Source of the DNA: Bacteroidales bacterium
GTDB lineage: Bacteria > Bacteroidota > Bacteroidia > Bacteroidales > DTU049
Length of the DNA stretch: 12,433 bases
Reading direction: 5' to 3'
NCBI GenBank assembly: GCA_018432645.1
Contig: JAHDSP010000047.1
Location: forward strand, 1-12,433
The notes beneath the pieces were generated by a model, which saw only the letters and a list, made by a program, of their open reading frames with translations, made no database searches and had not been told where the DNA came from. Below, piece by piece: positions 2,239 through 9,796 of this stretch (within the stretch, counting starts at the first letter, position 1; every line of letters starts with the position of its first letter). A program made the position numbers and the translations under genes.

Positions 2239-2925
2239 TCATTCAATTATCTCGTCTTGATTATCTAATTCGCTTGGCATAACTACAGCCCCTGGTTGAG
2301 AAAACACTTTTTTGTAAAAAAATATCATTATTAAAACACCAGTAGTTATACAGGCATCTGCAATGTTAAAAATTGGTTGAAAAAAAATAAAATGTTTACC
2401 GCCCCATATGGGTAACCATTCTGGCAGAGTTGTATTAATAATTGGAAAATAAAGCATATCTACAACTCTTCCTTGCATGAAAGGAGCATAGCCTTGACCA
2501 AAAGGCACAAAATGAGCAGGTTGGTTATCGAAGCCAAAAACACCACTTTCGCTAAATATCAAGCCATAAAACATACTATCAATAATATTACCTACAGCAC
2601 CAGCAAATATAAATGCTAATGAATAATAGAATAATTTATGATGGCTTTTATTAAAACTTTTAATTATATACCACAAAATTACAGCTGCAGCAACAATACG
2701 AAAAATTGTTAAAATATATTTGCCAATAACTCCGCCCCATTGCATTCCATAAGCCATTCCCGCATTTTCTACAAAATACAAACAAAACCAATTTCCAATC
2801 AAACAAATTTTTTCCCCTAACAAAAAATTTGTTTTAATATAAATTTTTAATATTTGATCGATAAGTAATAAAATAATTATAAAGATAGTTAACTTAAGCT
2901 TTAATGATTTTTTATTATCATTCAT
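2239..2925 (-). CDS. lspA: Lipoprotein signal peptidase (signal peptidase II)
   Basis: LspA is the inner-membrane aspartyl protease that cuts the signal peptide from prolipoproteins after diacylglyceryl modification of the lipobox cysteine. The protein has 228 residues from the ATG at 2925. A TTG eight codons upstream (2949) also keeps the frame open but is a less likely start. Four hydrophobic segments lie near residues 11-29, 69-90, 100-116 and 190-206. The family motifs are all present: an early DQ at 23, ENAGMAYG from 53, GNIID with catalytic Asp116, and FNIAD with catalytic Asp190. It is longer than the roughly 160-residue proteobacterial enzyme because of an insert between the two aspartates (about residues 120-180), which I recall as usual for Bacteroidota. 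It is the last gene of the ileS-dksA-lspA cluster, 52 nt after the dksA-like stop, and is probably co-transcribed. Confidence 0.95.
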   Translation of the reverse strand: MNDNKKSLKLKLTIFIIILLLIDQILKIYIKTNFLLGEKICLIGNWFCLYFVENAGMAYGMQWGGVIGKYILTIFRIVAAAVILWYIIKSFNKSHHKLFYYSLAFIFAGAVGNIIDSMFYGLIFSESGVFGFDNQPAHFVPFGQGYAPFMQGRVVDMLYFPIINTTLPEWLPIWGGKHFIFFQPIFNIADACITTGVLIMIFFYKKVFSQPGAVVMPSELDNQDEIIE

Positions 2926-2977
2926 AGAGAAAATTTTGTGTAAATACAAAAAATTTTTTTAAAGTATTAACAAAGAA

Positions 2978-3418
2978 TTAATCTTCTAATTCTTCATCAT
3001 TTGAATTTTCTTCTTCATTAACAGGAATTTCTCCTTTTTGCATTTTGAGTTTAGCCTCGATACTGAGAGTAGCATGTGGAACAGCTCTGAGTCTATCTTT
3101 TTCGATGAGCTTACCAGTTACACGACAAATGCCATAGGTTTTATTTTCTATTCTTACTAAAGCTAGTTCAAGATCTCGAACAAATCTTTCTAATCTAGCA
3201 ATTAATCTAGCATTTTCTTCTTTTATCAAATTTTCTTTACCATCATCTTGTAGTCTATAAGTCAAATTAGTATCTACTTCACCGTCGCTATGCATACTTT
3301 CGCGTAAAATCTCTAGATCAGCTTTAGCTTTATCTAATTTTTTTAAAATGATCTGCTTAAACTCTTCTAGCTCTTCATCACTATAACGTGTTTTTTCTTC
3401 TTTATTATCTACTGCCAT
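2978..3418 (-). CDS. DksA/TraR-family transcription regulator without zinc cysteines
   Basis: DksA/TraR proteins insert a coiled coil into the RNA polymerase secondary channel and modulate initiation, often together with ppGpp. The ATG at 3418 gives 146 residues; a TTG two codons upstream is an unlikely alternative. Residues about 15-92 form a charged, helical coiled-coil region with acidic residues near its turn (DGEVDT at 45-50). The C-terminal finger keeps the family frame YGIC...G..I...RLRAVPHA, but of the four zinc-binding cysteine positions only Cys98 remains; the others read Thr101, Ser119 and Ala122. Cysteine loss is common in Bacteroidota members of this family, so the protein is probably functional, with a zinc-free fold. 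The tail is strongly acidic (130-146). The gene starts 15 nt after the ileS stop, which implies one operon. Confidence 0.9.
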   Translation of the reverse strand: MAVDNKEEKTRYSDEELEEFKQIILKKLDKAKADLEILRESMHSDGEVDTNLTYRLQDDGKENLIKEENARLIARLERFVRDLELALVRIENKTYGICRVTGKLIEKDRLRAVPHATLSIEAKLKMQKGEIPVNEEENSNDEELED

Positions 3419-3433
3419 AATCAATAATTTTTA

Positions 3434-6400
3434 TTAAATTTTTTCTATATGTACTAAAACAGGAATTTCATCTTCTACTGTTATAGTATTTATTTCTAAT
3501 CCATTTAAGGAAACATTTTTTAACTCTTCAGCTAAAATTTCATTGCAAACATACGAATAATTTTTCAATATACTATTATTCACAAAATCATCATCCGAAT
3601 TAAACATAACTTTGATTTTATCAGTTACATCAAAATTTTTTTCTTTTCTTAAATTTTGAATTCTATTAACAAAATCTCTAGCTATACCTTCCTGTCGTAG
3701 CTCATCATTAATAGTAATATCTAGTGCCACAGTGAAATTATTTTCATGAGAAACAAGCCACCCTGGTATATCCTCTGTGATAATCTCTATCTCTTCTAAT
3801 AATATTTCTAAATCGCCCTCTGAAGTTTTGATAGTAGCTTTTTTATTTTTTTCTATTTCATTAATCTGAGGACTATCCCAGCTTTGAATAATATTAGAAA
3901 TTTCTTTCATCATTTTACCATATTTAGGACCTAACAATTTAAAATTAGGTTTAGCCTTTTTCACTAAAAAATCGTTTTGTAAACTTATAAATTCTAACTC
4001 TTTAACATTAGTTTCATGTAAAATGAGAGACTTCACTAAATCTAATTGCTTGATAGTATAATCATCAGCAGGAATGATAGCTTTGGATAATGGCTGTCTA
4101 ACTCTAATTTTTGCTTTTTTCCTCAGAGATAATATCATAGAGCTAAGATCCTGAGCCCATTCCATTCTCTCCTCTAATTGTTTATCGACGAGTGATACAT
4201 CATAATGAGGAAAATCTAATAGATGAACACTCACTTTAGATTTTTTATTAGTAACAGAATTTAAATCTTTAAAAAGTCTATCAGCATAGAAAGGTGCAAT
4301 AGGTGATAGCAAAATAGCTATAGTTTCTAAACAATTATATAATGTTTGATAAGCAGAAATTTTGTCTTGAGAGTATTCACCTTTCCAAAATCTACGACGC
4401 GAAAGACGTACATACCAATTGCTTAAGTAATTAACAGTAAATTGCTCAATTAATCTACCTGCTTTTGTTGGTTCATAATCTTCATAAGCATCTTCTACAT
4501 TTTTAATCAAAGTATTAAGTTCAGATAATATCCATTTATCTAGTTCTAATCTACCATTAATAGGTATTTCTGCTTCAGAGTATGTAAATCCATCAATATT
4601 AGCATACAATGCAAAAAATGAATATGTATTATATAAAGTACCAAAAAACCTTCTAACAACTTCGCTAACGCCTTCAATATCAAACTTTAGACTATCCCAC
4701 GGTTGAGAATTAGTAATAATATAAAAACGTAAAGCATCTGCTCCATAATTATTAATAACTTCAAAAGGATCTACAACATTGCCAAGACGTTTAGACATTT
4801 TAGAGCCATTTTTATCAAGGACTAATCCATTAGCAATTACATTTTTATAAGCTACACTATCAAAAAGCATAGTAGCTAAAGCATGTAAAGTATAAAACCA
4901 CCCACGAGTTTGATCTACTCCCTCAGCTATGAAATCTGCGGGGAAATTATTTTTAAAATTATCCTTATTTTCAAAAGGATAATGCAACTGAGCATATGGC
5001 ATAGAGCCACTATCAAACCAAACATCTATAACATCAGGTTCACGATACATAGGTTTACCAGATGGTGAAACTAAAACTATTTCATCTACAAAGGGACGAT
5101 GCAAATCAATTTTACTATAATTAACCTCAGAATTATCACCAGGAATAAAGTCTTTAAAAGGATTTTCTTTCATAAATCCATTAGCTATACTTTTATCTAT
5201 CTCTTTTTTAAATTCTTCAATAGATCCGACACAAATTTCTTCAGATTTATCGATAGTTCTCCAAATAGGTAATGGAGTTCCCCAGAAACGGGAACGACTG
5301 AGATTCCAGTCTACCATATTTTCTAACCAATTGCCAAAACGACCACTTCCCGTAAATTCTGGTTTCCAATTAATAGTTTTATTCAGTTCAATCATTTTAT
5401 CTTTGAGAGCAGTAGTCCTAATAAACCAAGAATCTAATGGATAATAAATAATCGGTTTATCAGTACGCCAGCAATGTGGATAGCTATGTTCATATTTTTC
5501 TGTTGAGAAAGCTTTATTTTCTCGTTTTAGTTTAGTAATTATTTCTATATCTACGTTAAGTTCTTTTTCTTTTTCTGGAGAATAGTCAGGATAATATTCT
5601 GGTTTTACAAATTTACCAGCAAATTCACCCATTTCATCAGTGAATTTACCTTGTTTATCTACTAATGTTAATGCGCCAATATTATAAATTTTATCCATTC
5701 TGAAATCATCAGCGCCGAAACTAGGAGCTATATGCACTATACCTGTACCCTCATCAGTAGAAACGAAATCGCCAATAATCACTCTAAAAGGATCGCCTCT
5801 ATCTGGTTTAGCATAAGGTAATAATTGTTCATATCTAATATTAGCTAATTTATCACCTTTAATAGTTCTTATGACTTTATAAGGGATAATATTTTTAGCT
5901 TGATCGAAAGCCTCGAAAGGTAGATTTTCATGTTCTAGATTAAACCATCTATTGAGTACATTTTTAGCTAAAATAACTGTTTCTTCGATGCCAGTATACT
6001 TATTAATAGTAGCTACCACTACATAATCAATATCCTCACCCACAGCTAATGCAGTATTAGAAGGTAATGTCCACGGAGTAGTAGTCCAAGCTAATAAATA
6101 AACATCCCCATCAGCACCATCAAAAAGGAATTCTGAAGTTTTGTTTTTTATAACTTTAAATTGAGCAACAACACTATTATCCTTAACTAAGCAATAACAA
6201 CCTGGCTGATTAAGTTCATGAGAACTCAACCCTGTACCAGCAGCTGGAGAGTATGGTTGAATAGTAAAGCCTTTATACAATAAACCTTTTTGATAAAGTT
6301 GCTTTAAAAGATACCAAAGTGTTTCTATATATTTATTATCAAAAGTGATGTAAGGATGATCTAAATCTATCCAATAGCCCATTATTTGAGTAAGTTCTTC

Positions 6401-6796
6401 CCACTTATCTTTATACTTCATCACTTCAGTTCTACATTGTTTATTAAAATCAGCAATACTGATTTTTTTACCAATATCTTCTTTATTTATACCCAGTTTA
6501 GATTCTACAGCTAGCTCTACAGGTAAGCCATGAGTATCCCAACCAGCTTTTCTATGAACTTGATAGCCTTTTAATGTTTTGTATCGACAAAACAGATCTT
6601 TTATAGTTCTAGACATCACATGATGAATACCAGGTAATCCATTAGCACTAGGAGGACCTTCATAAAAGATAAATCGTGGATGTCCATTCCTATTTTCTAT
6701 ACTTTTATTAAACAAATCATTTTCTTGCCAAAAATTTAATTCTTCTTTAGCTATCGTTGGTAGGTCTAGTGTCTTATACTCTCTATATTTTTTCAT
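3434..6796 (-). CDS. ileS: Isoleucyl-tRNA synthetase, type 2-like, with swapped HIGH motif (GIHH)
   Basis: This class I aminoacyl-tRNA synthetase charges tRNA-Ile and hydrolyses mischarged Val-tRNA. The protein is 1120 residues and complete. The Rossmann core carries the first signature as GLPGIHH (GIHH at 56-59) and the second as KMSKR at 666-670. The CP1 editing domain spans roughly 185-410, with TTTPWTLPSN at 238-247 and GTGIVHIAPSFGADDF at 350-365 containing the conserved editing aspartate. A WFDSGS motif precedes the second half of the catalytic core. The anticodon-binding helical domain and a C-terminal extension without an obvious Cys4 zinc knuckle follow. Overall form, KMSKR and tail resemble eukaryote-like type 2 IleRS. 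The canonical motif is HxGH; here the first and third positions are exchanged to GxHH, a form reported in mupirocin hyper-resistant IleRS2. It heads the ileS-dksA-lspA operon. The ATG at 6796 is preceded by a -7 box 18 nt upstream. Confidence 0.97.
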   Translation of the reverse strand: MKKYREYKTLDLPTIAKEELNFWQENDLFNKSIENRNGHPRFIFYEGPPSANGLPGIHHVMSRTIKDLFCRYKTLKGYQVHRKAGWDTHGLPVELAVESKLGINKEDIGKKISIADFNKQCRTEVMKYKDKWEELTQIMGYWIDLDHPYITFDNKYIETLWYLLKQLYQKGLLYKGFTIQPYSPAAGTGLSSHELNQPGCYCLVKDNSVVAQFKVIKNKTSEFLFDGADGDVYLLAWTTTPWTLPSNTALAVGEDIDYVVVATINKYTGIEETVILAKNVLNRWFNLEHENLPFEAFDQAKNIIPYKVIRTIKGDKLANIRYEQLLPYAKPDRGDPFRVIIGDFVSTDEGTGIVHIAPSFGADDFRMDKIYNIGALTLVDKQGKFTDEMGEFAGKFVKPEYYPDYSPEKEKELNVDIEIITKLKRENKAFSTEKYEHSYPHCWRTDKPIIYYPLDSWFIRTTALKDKMIELNKTINWKPEFTGSGRFGNWLENMVDWNLSRSRFWGTPLPIWRTIDKSEEICVGSIEEFKKEIDKSIANGFMKENPFKDFIPGDNSEVNYSKIDLHRPFVDEIVLVSPSGKPMYREPDVIDVWFDSGSMPYAQLHYPFENKDNFKNNFPADFIAEGVDQTRGWFYTLHALATMLFDSVAYKNVIANGLVLDKNGSKMSKRLGNVVDPFEVINNYGADALRFYIITNSQPWDSLKFDIEGVSEVVRRFFGTLYNTYSFFALYANIDGFTYSEAEIPINGRLELDKWILSELNTLIKNVEDAYEDYEPTKAGRLIEQFTVNYLSNWYVRLSRRRFWKGEYSQDKISAYQTLYNCLETIAILLSPIAPFYADRLFKDLNSVTNKKSKVSVHLLDFPHYDVSLVDKQLEERMEWAQDLSSMILSLRKKAKIRVRQPLSKAIIPADDYTIKQLDLVKSLILHETNVKELEFISLQNDFLVKKAKPNFKLLGPKYGKMMKEISNIIQSWDSPQINEIEKNKKATIKTSEGDLEILLEEIEIITEDIPGWLVSHENNFTVALDITINDELRQEGIARDFVNRIQNLRKEKNFDVTDKIKVMFNSDDDFVNNSILKNYSYVCNEILAEELKNVSLNGLEINTITVEDEIPVLVHIEKI

Positions 6797-6872: not shown

Positions 6873-7490
6873 ATGTCAAAAAATAAATTTTATGTAGTAT
6901 GGATAGGTAGAGAACAAGGAATATTTGATAGTTGGGAAGAATGCAAAAAACAAATAGATGGATTTGCGGGAGCTAAATATAAAGGCTTCACTACATATGA
7001 ACAAGCTAAACTAGCATATCAATCTTCTCCACCTAATACAAATGTTGTAAATCCAATTCTCGAAAAAATACAAAATAATTTTCCACAAAATAGTATAGCA
7101 GTAGATGCAGCAGTAAATATGAAAAATGGTATAATGGAATATAGAGGAATACATTTATCCTCTATGCAAATAATATTTCATGTAGGGCCATTGGATTATG
7201 GATTAAAAAGTAATAATATTGCTGAATTCCTAGCAATAGTTCATGGATTGCAATGGTTATGGCAATATAATATTAATGCACCAGTATATTCTGATTCATT
7301 TACAGCTATCACATGGGTGAAAAACAAAAAGATAAATTCAAAAGCACTAGAGAATAATCCAGTTCCACAAATAAAAGAGAGAATAGAAACAGCATTAAAA
7401 TGGCTAAAAGAACATCCCGAACATGCTGAAGTGAGAAAATGGAATACACAAGAATGGGGAGAGATACCAGCAGATTTCAATAGAAAATAA
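6873..7490 (+). CDS. rnhA: Viroplasmin-domain ribonuclease HI
   Basis: RNase HI cuts the RNA strand of RNA-DNA hybrids, removing R-loops and primers in the cytoplasm. The 205-residue protein begins with a caulimovirus viroplasmin-like domain (about residues 4-50: KFYVVWIGREQGIF, W21, GFAGAKYKGF), a module thought to bind nucleic-acid duplexes. A short linker leads to an RNase H fold (74-205). The four acidic catalytic positions are Asp78 (VDAAV), Glu118 (NNIAEFLAI), Asp141 (YSDSFTAI) and Asp201 in the final PADFNRK. The RNase H part is the compact version usual in Bacteroidota. It stands alone, divergent from ileS and convergent with the downstream propeller gene. There is no Shine-Dalgarno sequence before the ATG, as expected for the phylum. 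Confidence 0.92.
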   Translation: MSKNKFYVVWIGREQGIFDSWEECKKQIDGFAGAKYKGFTTYEQAKLAYQSSPPNTNVVNPILEKIQNNFPQNSIAVDAAVNMKNGIMEYRGIHLSSMQIIFHVGPLDYGLKSNNIAEFLAIVHGLQWLWQYNINAPVYSDSFTAITWVKNKKINSKALENNPVPQIKERIETALKWLKEHPEHAEVRKWNTQEWGEIPADFNRK

Positions 7491-7612: not shown

Positions 7613-9796
7613 TCAAACCTTTATAATTTTTTCAGTTTTAATTAGATTACTACTCTTTATAATAATGAAATAAACTCCATTAGCATAATTTGACAAGTCT
7701 ATAGTTTCATAAATTATATCTGAATTATTATTAAAATTTTTATTTAATAATTTTTCTCCATTTATATCAAAAAATTCAATTGATAAATCATTATCTATTA
7801 AACCATTAATTTTAATATTAAGCTTATCTTGAACTGGATTTGGATATATATTTACTTTAATTGTATTGTTTAATTCGATGTAGCCATCTTCTGTTGTTAT
7901 AGTAATAATTATAGTATCAGAATTAGAACAACCATTTGTATCTGTAACATTTACATAATAACTATAAATCCCTTGCCCCATACTTCCATAAACTGTAATT
8001 ATTGAATCTATAGAACCATTACTCCATAAATAGCTATTAAATCCAGATCCTGCATTTATATTTATAGTGTCAGATATATTAATAGTTGTATCATTCCCTA
8101 AATTTATATACGGTAGAGGATATACAAATAAATTTAAATTATAAACGCTATCACAATTATTTATCGTAATCAAGCTGTCATAATAAATTCCCGATAAGTT
8201 ATAATAATTACCATGCCATAATTTTCCTCCACAAACAGTGTCAGTTTCTGTAAAAAAATAAACATTATTTACAGTTATTATTACACTATCAGTATTTATA
8301 TTACCAATGCTATCAGTTACTGTTAATGTATAAGTTGTAGTAATATTAGGAAAAGCAATTGGATTGGCTATTGTACTATCATTTAAGCTTCCAGAGTTGT
8401 TCCATAAATAAGTATAAGGAGGTATACATTCACTTGCTGTTGGTGATCCTCCAATTGCAATGCTATCTCCATTACATATTATTCTATCAGGACCTGCATC
8501 AACCATTAACATTGGAGCTAACTTAATTATCCAATAGTCACCACTTCCATGATACCCCGACACATCGCCGTTATTGGACCATGTGTAACCAGCCACAACA
8601 AATCCCCCATCACTTGTCTGCTGGATGGAATTTGCATAATCATCACCTGTTCCGCCTAGGCATTTTTTCCATAGAATATCCCCTGAACTGTTAAGTTTCA
8701 CTACCCAATAGTCTTGCCCTCCATGATTCCCCGACACATCGACATCATTGGACCATGTTTTACCAGCCACAATAAATCCCCCATCAAATGTCTGTTGGAT
8801 GGAGTATGCAATATCCCAATTTGTTCCGCCGAGGCATTTTTGCCATAGAATATCCCCTGAACTGTTAAGTTTCACTACCCAATAGTCAGCATCTCCATGA
8901 AACCCCGACACATCGCCGTCATTGGAAGATGTTCCACCAGCCACAATAAATCCCCCATCACTTGTCTCCTGGATGGAGTATGCAATATCCAAATTTGTTC
9001 CGCCGAGGCATTTTTGCCATAGAATTGTTCCTGAACTGTTGAGTTTCACTACCCAATAGTCAGAATATCCATGATTCCCTGACACATCGCCGTTATTGGA
9101 AGATGTTTCACCAGCTATAATAAATCCCCCATCACTTGTCTCCTGGATGGAGTTTGCCACATCCGTACCTATTCCGCCGAGGCATTTTTGCCATAGAATA
9201 TTCCCTGAACTGTTAAGTTTCACTATCCAATAATCCCAATCTCCATGATTCCCCGACACATCGCCGTCATTGGAATATGTTTCACCAGCCACAATAAATC
9301 CCCCATCACTTGTCTGCTGGATGGAGTTTGCTTCATCATCGTTTGTCCCACCCAGGCATTTTTGCCATTCAAAATCACCTGAACTATTAAGTTTCACTAT
9401 CCAATAGTCAGCATCTCCATGATTCCCCGACACATCGCCGTCATTGGACCATGTGTAACCAGCCACAATAAATCCCCCATCACTTGTCTGCTGGATGGAG
9501 TTTGCATAATCACCAGATGTTCCGCCGAGGCATTTTTTCCATTCAATTGTTCCTGAACTGTTAAGTTTCACTACCCAATAGTCATAATATCCATGATGCC
9601 CCGACACATCGCCATCATTGGACCATGTGTAACCAGCCACAATAAATCCACTATCACTTGTCTGCTGGATGGAGTTTGCATAATCATAACTTGTTCCGCC
9701 TAGACATTTTTGCCATTCAATTGCTGGTGACTGGGCATAAATATTTATGCTTATTAAAATAAAAATGTAAAATAAAGCTAATTTTTTTATTTTCAT
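7613..9796 (-). CDS. Secreted seven-repeat beta-propeller-like protein with T9SS type A sorting domain
   Basis: The 727-residue protein begins with a clear signal peptide (MKIKKLALFYIFILISINIYA, probable cleavage before Gln22). Residues 26-426 are seven tandem 58-residue repeats with the pattern W-Q/K-K-C-L-G-G, A-x-S-I-Q, SDGGFIVAG, SN-x-GDVSG, HG, DYW-V/I-V-K-L-N-S-S-G. Seven units of this size with a DGGFIVAG strand suggest one closed seven-bladed beta-propeller; the last blade ends early at WIIKL. A PKD-like domain follows (about 433-510), then a TVCGGKLWHGNYYNLSG-type Bacteroidota module (about 518-560) and an Ig-like module (about 566-635). The last ~81 residues (647-727; IYPNP, ANGVYFIII, KIIKV end) form a type A sorting domain, which directs export through the T9SS and often anchoring to surface lipopolysaccharide. 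Probable role: surface adhesin or binding protein; ligand unknown. It is transcribed alone. Confidence 0.9.
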   Translation of the reverse strand: MKIKKLALFYIFILISINIYAQSPAIEWQKCLGGTSYDYANSIQQTSDSGFIVAGYTWSNDGDVSGHHGYYDYWVVKLNSSGTIEWKKCLGGTSGDYANSIQQTSDGGFIVAGYTWSNDGDVSGNHGDADYWIVKLNSSGDFEWQKCLGGTNDDEANSIQQTSDGGFIVAGETYSNDGDVSGNHGDWDYWIVKLNSSGNILWQKCLGGIGTDVANSIQETSDGGFIIAGETSSNNGDVSGNHGYSDYWVVKLNSSGTILWQKCLGGTNLDIAYSIQETSDGGFIVAGGTSSNDGDVSGFHGDADYWVVKLNSSGDILWQKCLGGTNWDIAYSIQQTFDGGFIVAGKTWSNDVDVSGNHGGQDYWVVKLNSSGDILWKKCLGGTGDDYANSIQQTSDGGFVVAGYTWSNNGDVSGYHGSGDYWIIKLAPMLMVDAGPDRIICNGDSIAIGGSPTASECIPPYTYLWNNSGSLNDSTIANPIAFPNITTTYTLTVTDSIGNINTDSVIITVNNVYFFTETDTVCGGKLWHGNYYNLSGIYYDSLITINNCDSVYNLNLFVYPLPYINLGNDTTINISDTININAGSGFNSYLWSNGSIDSIITVYGSMGQGIYSYYVNVTDTNGCSNSDTIIITITTEDGYIELNNTIKVNIYPNPVQDKLNIKINGLIDNDLSIEFFDINGEKLLNKNFNNNSDIIYETIDLSNYANGVYFIIIKSSNLIKTEKIIKV
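8519..9721 (-). repeat. Seven tandem 174-bp coding repeats
   Basis: In-frame units of 174 bp start (minus strand) at 9721, 9547, 9373, 9199, 9025, 8851 and 8677; the last is shortened to about 159 bp. Short strings such as GACACATCG and TGGATGGA on the plus strand occur in all seven, and longer blocks are identical between several units. Differences concentrate in a few codons after CLGG, after AG and around HG. By eye the array is clearly GC-richer than the rest of the gene. High DNA-level similarity suggests recent duplication or gene conversion. Confidence 0.93.

Follow-up and report, generated by a model that had tools for sequence, protein, structure and literature searches.

The gene at positions 3434..6796 on the reverse strand of the window (the whole 12,433-nucleotide stretch of DNA analyzed here) is very probably the housekeeping ileS gene of a Bacteroidales-like bacterium, encoding a type 2 isoleucyl-tRNA synthetase (IleRS) in which the class I signature HXGH is naturally swapped to GXHH. 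The enzyme belongs to an already described kind (Brkic et al., 2023; PMC10485003), so the observation holds up without being novel. It bears out an exception, known from the literature, to a motif that is among the best conserved in enzymes, and the constancy of the swap across a sample of one phylum is a modest addition to the published work.

Catalytic signatures and assignment to type 2 IleRS

The open reading frame of ileS (6796..3434, reverse strand) is intact and comprises 1120 codons with an ATG start. Direct reading of GGT-ATT-CAT-CAT at 6631..6620 on the coding strand gives residues 56-59 as GIHH, and in a MAFFT alignment these residues share their columns with residues 65-68 (HIGH) of the E. 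coli IleRS. The codons, the coordinates (6620..6631) and the alignment agree with the swapped motif reported in the preliminary description. The GIHH motif pairs gap-free with GVHH of 8c8w, the best-matching PDB chain; HVGH stands at this position in the natural chains 8c8u and 8c8v, as it does in the Thermus thermophilus chain 1ile.

The window protein (1120 aa) was matched by the NCBIfam ileS model TIGR00392 with 1011 bits (cut-off 621.4). Pfam domains of the class I core were detected together with an anticodon-binding domain (PF08264, residues 753-906, 4079..4540, reverse strand) and the C-terminal domain DUF5915 (PF19302, residues 923-1110, 3467..4030, reverse strand, E 3.2e-49). In the PDB, the IleRS2 chains of Priestia megaterium match best; they align over residues 22-1090 and score 793-804 bits, compared to 331-339 bits for the IleRS1 chains of the same species. 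According to PMC10485003, 8c8u and 8c8v are the natural P. megaterium IleRS2 and 8c8w is its GVHH variant; the swap in that enzyme was made in the laboratory, whereas the window enzyme carries GIHH naturally.

The type 2 assignment made in the preliminary description was verified with further sequence marks. The published type 1 signatures are Tyr-59, 71-NKIL-74 and 572-SSL in E. coli numbering (PMC4861432); the corresponding columns of the window IleRS read S, SRTI and TLH, so that all three signatures are absent. The sequence HYPFE, given in the same source as a signature of eukaryote-like or type 2 IleRS, is present at residues 605-609 (4970..4984, reverse strand). It is an imperfect marker and not universal, since it is replaced by GYPYG in the Rhodococcus IleRS2 used as a comparator, which is type 2 by other marks. 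DUF5915 was found in both IleRS2 comparators (Sutcliffiella and Rhodococcus) and in neither of the two IleRS1 (E. coli and B. velezensis).

A phylogeny of IleRS1 and IleRS2 was calculated from 84 rows as a quick IQ-TREE run with SH-aLRT support and no bootstrap. The two IleRS1 rows are set apart with an SH-aLRT of 100, and the window protein is located within a clade of 79 phylum rows with a support of 99. The branches leading to the outside rows, two IleRS1 and two IleRS2, are long, for which the tool gave a warning, and the order among these IleRS2 rows is tentative.

A type 1 enzyme that had gained the swap would share general IleRS homology with the window protein, and 28-30% identity to the IleRS1 of E. 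coli and B. velezensis is indeed found. The identities to the IleRS2 of Sutcliffiella (40%) and Rhodococcus (36%) speak against such an origin, as do the signatures, DUF5915 and the tree, and it would contradict the finding reported in PMC10485003 that IleRS1 does not accommodate the swap. This explanation is so improbable as to be negligible, and the type 1 assignment was ruled out. By sequence the window protein is a type 2 IleRS.

The cysteine count of the C-terminus was also tried as a type 1 mark. It failed, as the B. velezensis IleRS1 likewise has a single cysteine in its last 70 residues, and the Pfam domains were used in its place. The IleRS1 of the B. velezensis plasmid record (L266) lacks the Pfam C-terminal zinc finger that was found in the E. 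coli IleRS, and its C-terminus may be altered or frameshifted.

The second catalytic signature of the window IleRS is KMSKR (residues 666-670, 4787..4801, reverse strand, by alignment), which the preliminary description had taken as additional support for type 2. This does not hold. Among 78 full-length phylum IleRS rows, KMSKS was found in 45, KMSKR in 24, KMSKT in eight and KMSKK in one, and the 24 rows with KMSKR comprise the entire class to which the window protein belongs (22 rows) and two others. Furthermore, each of the 80 closest named relatives kept from 577 has KMSKR, and the comparators have KMSKS (Sutcliffiella IleRS2 and both IleRS1) or KMSKH (Rhodococcus). Judging from KMSKS in most of the phylum rows and KMSKR throughout the window's class, KMSKR is a trait of the lineage and not a mark of type 2.

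Distribution of the swap in the phylum

The nearest named relatives are metagenome-assembled genomes called Bacteroidales bacterium, the best with 96% identity among the matches listed. All listed relatives are Bacteroidota by name, except for a few oddly named metagenome-assembled genomes, one of which is filed as Williamsia. Going by these relatives, the phylum surveyed below is probably Bacteroidota. In the best 120 of 7999 scored proteins, a context-anchored pattern detected GIHH in 115; of the remaining five, one (P0092) starts with LPGIHH and four start downstream of the motif. Among the best 80 of 577 named relatives GIHH is present in 79, and in the remaining one (L008) the sequence is truncated ahead of the motif.

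For a survey of the phylum, three ileS candidates were scored per genome. A match was obtained in 246 of 247 genomes, including the window's own, with one each at E <= 1e-120. The motif was read by position from tblastn in 178 of the 245 other matched genomes. These do not form a random sample, as they comprise the 29 best-scoring loci, 30 hand-picked genomes (mostly poorly scoring) and 119 from the survey list; by a reading of the table, all 44 family labels of the survey are covered by the genomes read, counting the window's own. All 178 have G[I/V/L/M]HH and none has HXGH. The motif is GIHH in 148 genomes, GVHH in 27, GLHH in two and GMHH in one.

Taken with the 115 of the 120 best-listed proteins, this constancy means that GIHH in the window is not a sequencing error, and by the same sequence comparison the swap is not peculiar to the window organism. 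The rarity implied by the preliminary description is therefore not borne out, as the swap is common to all phylum genomes read. The swap is also present beyond the phylum, namely as GTHH in the plasmid enzyme of Rhodococcus opacus; the motif of Sutcliffiella is HAGH.

Three genomes with low ileS scores (G057, G103 and G190) were considered as exceptions, but each contains one gene that was matched in pieces, and GXHH is present in all three. In the phylum genome G176, listed as 100% complete, none of the eight first-look candidates, all of which were scored, matched the ileS model at E <= 1e-60; the missing gene is perhaps explained by a gap or a masked stretch.

A search for IleRS1 in 395 phylum genomes, with one query and two candidates scored per genome in the results shown, revealed none at E <= 1e-140. 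Of these genomes, 370 are at least 90% complete with at most 5% contamination. As a control, the same query and threshold find the B. velezensis IleRS1 at 1.4e-260.

Copy number and gene neighbourhood

The assembly containing the window has a size of 2.46 Mb in 572 contigs and is 99.93% complete with 7.14% contamination. One ileS copy was found in it, in agreement with the expectation of the preliminary description that the gene is the only one. Candidate matches for a second ileS turned out to be a ValRS on contig C176 (motif HMGH; 1110.9 bits, cut-off 704) and a MetRS on contig C10 (703.3 bits, cut-off 587). A search of the assembly with the E. coli IleRS1 as query returned the same three genes (IleRS, ValRS and MetRS) and no further one. 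Due to the fragmentation and contamination of the assembly, a second ileS may be hidden in a gap. The proposed dependence of the organism on the altered motif is upheld, because the single ileS copy detected there encodes a type 2 enzyme and bears GXHH.

Downstream of ileS, a gene for a TraR/DksA C4-type zinc-finger protein is located at 2978..3424 on the reverse strand (PF01258, E 4.2e-8); the gap between both genes is 9 bp, if the TraR/DksA gene starts at the TTG of the open reading frame listing. It is followed in the same gene run by lspA, encoding the lipoprotein signal peptidase (2239..2949, reverse strand; PF01252, E 5.7e-35). Two named records, one from Riemerella and the other from Parabacteroides, likewise show the order ileS, TraR/DksA, lspA, and a TraR/DksA gene follows ileS in B. 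velezensis as well. In 70 of 80 related loci at least 2 kb of downstream sequence are available. Within these 70, a TraR/DksA gene on the same strand starts at most 900 bp past the end of the ileS match in 62 loci and at most 950 bp past it in six more; it is on the opposite strand in one locus and was not found in one. The lspA gene was found in six of the 70 loci, a count that is uninformative because the lspA query diverges.

An acquired resistance copy of the mupA/mupB type beside a sensitive housekeeping enzyme was considered as another explanation of the gene. The NCBIfam models of MupA and MupB, which describe related IleRS, do match the window protein (804.7 and 795 bits), but these scores are far below the curated cut-offs of 1900 bits. 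MupA and MupB are added copies, whereas the window ileS is the sole gene found and lies in a conserved order, with TraR/DksA and then lspA as in the two named Bacteroidota records, and the 246 matched phylum genomes likewise have one ileS each at the survey threshold. An acquired copy is thus a very improbable explanation, and the reading as the housekeeping ileS is preferred.

The Riemerella and Parabacteroides records mentioned above (L270, NZ_CP081938.1; L271, NZ_OY725767.1) are filed as plasmids. From the TraR/DksA and lspA genes behind their ileS, they look like mis-filed chromosome pieces and not like mobile resistance copies.

Upstream of ileS and divergent from it, a gene at 6873-7490 on the forward strand encodes an RNase H-like protein whose N-terminus carries a Cauli_VI domain, its RNase_H match being just below the gathering score. 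This arrangement was found in one of the 80 related loci, some of which include little upstream DNA. A 727-aa protein is encoded at 7613-9796 on the reverse strand; it has a repeat whose unit is rich in NSIQQTSDGGFIVAG-like stretches, and a secretion-system C-terminal sorting domain was detected as well (PF18962). The protein encoded by the end of the contig, at 78-1583 on the forward strand, carries a type IX secretion signal of the CHU_C type (PF13585) and also matches a Reelin subrepeat. No RNA families or tRNAs were found within the window, and no defence families were found in three neighbours.

Predicted mupirocin resistance and retention of the motif

The preliminary description had stated that GxHH is known in a subset of type 2 IleRS and tied to hyper-resistance to mupirocin, and this is indeed published. 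According to PMC10485003, a set of 379 IleRS contains 86 G/AXHH IleRS2, and no IleRS1 in it has the swapped motif. The mupirocin Ki of the natural ALHH enzyme DrIleRS2 is given as 6600 µM, compared to 8.1 µM with HVGH. Introduction of GVHH into two canonical IleRS2 raised the Ki from 0.20 to 35 µM and from 1.08 to 460 µM, at the cost of a decreased kcat and an increased KM, and the swap in the IleRS1 of E. coli and P. megaterium yielded no product (PMC10485003). It is proposed there that the motif shifts in IleRS2 and thereby lets the third-position histidine act, and a clash of this histidine with mupirocin was modelled.

The window enzyme resembles these G/AXHH IleRS2 in being a type 2 housekeeping enzyme with the first and third signature residues swapped, with G in the first and H in the third of the HXGH columns. 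No difference in kind was found, KMSKR being a trait of the window's class. We infer the catalytic mechanism, the drug clash and the resistance of the window enzyme by analogy with these enzymes. On binding of mupirocin, the motif would shift back, and the third-position histidine would then clash with the drug and weaken its binding by orders of magnitude. Going by the measured relatives in PMC10485003, the window enzyme is likely to be hyper-resistant to mupirocin, and the intrinsic high-level resistance that the preliminary description expects of the organism is a reasonable prediction.

A literature search for IleRS together with GXHH returned PMC10485003 as the sole match. The string "Bacteroid" is absent from its main text, and its figure and source data may well include the phylum. 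The accessible text of the literature on mupirocin in Bacteroidota, including PMC6994654 and PMC10835994, yielded neither MIC nor Ki values from the phylum, and the search of that text returned no kinetics, structures or susceptibility data for a Bacteroidota IleRS.

We lean slightly towards the view that the swap is ancestral and fixed across Bacteroidota and that this phylum lacks IleRS1, so that it would depend on a non-canonical class I motif with mupirocin resistance built into an essential enzyme. If this is true, so old and complete a fixation would suggest that the active site was locked in by co-adaptation and not maintained by present drug pressure.

A related proposal concerns the reason for which the motif is kept: it would be an ancestral phylum trait to which the active site has adapted and which does not serve mupirocin resistance in this organism today, any such resistance being a by-product. 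The presence of the swap in all 178 phylum genomes read, with HXGH in none, is what such a trait would leave. The authors of PMC10485003, however, favour antibiotic selection, and the natural reversion that they report in Deinococcus-Thermus indicates that the motif is not locked everywhere. We regard the proposal as possible but somewhat doubtful. It is compatible with the identity of the protein as a housekeeping type 2 IleRS with a natural GXHH motif and differs on the reason for keeping the motif.

For genome annotation, naming such genes as mupirocin resistance determinants amounts to naming a housekeeping gene. An example is PMC10835994, a Bacteroidota draft genome report in which IleRS is listed under mupirocin.
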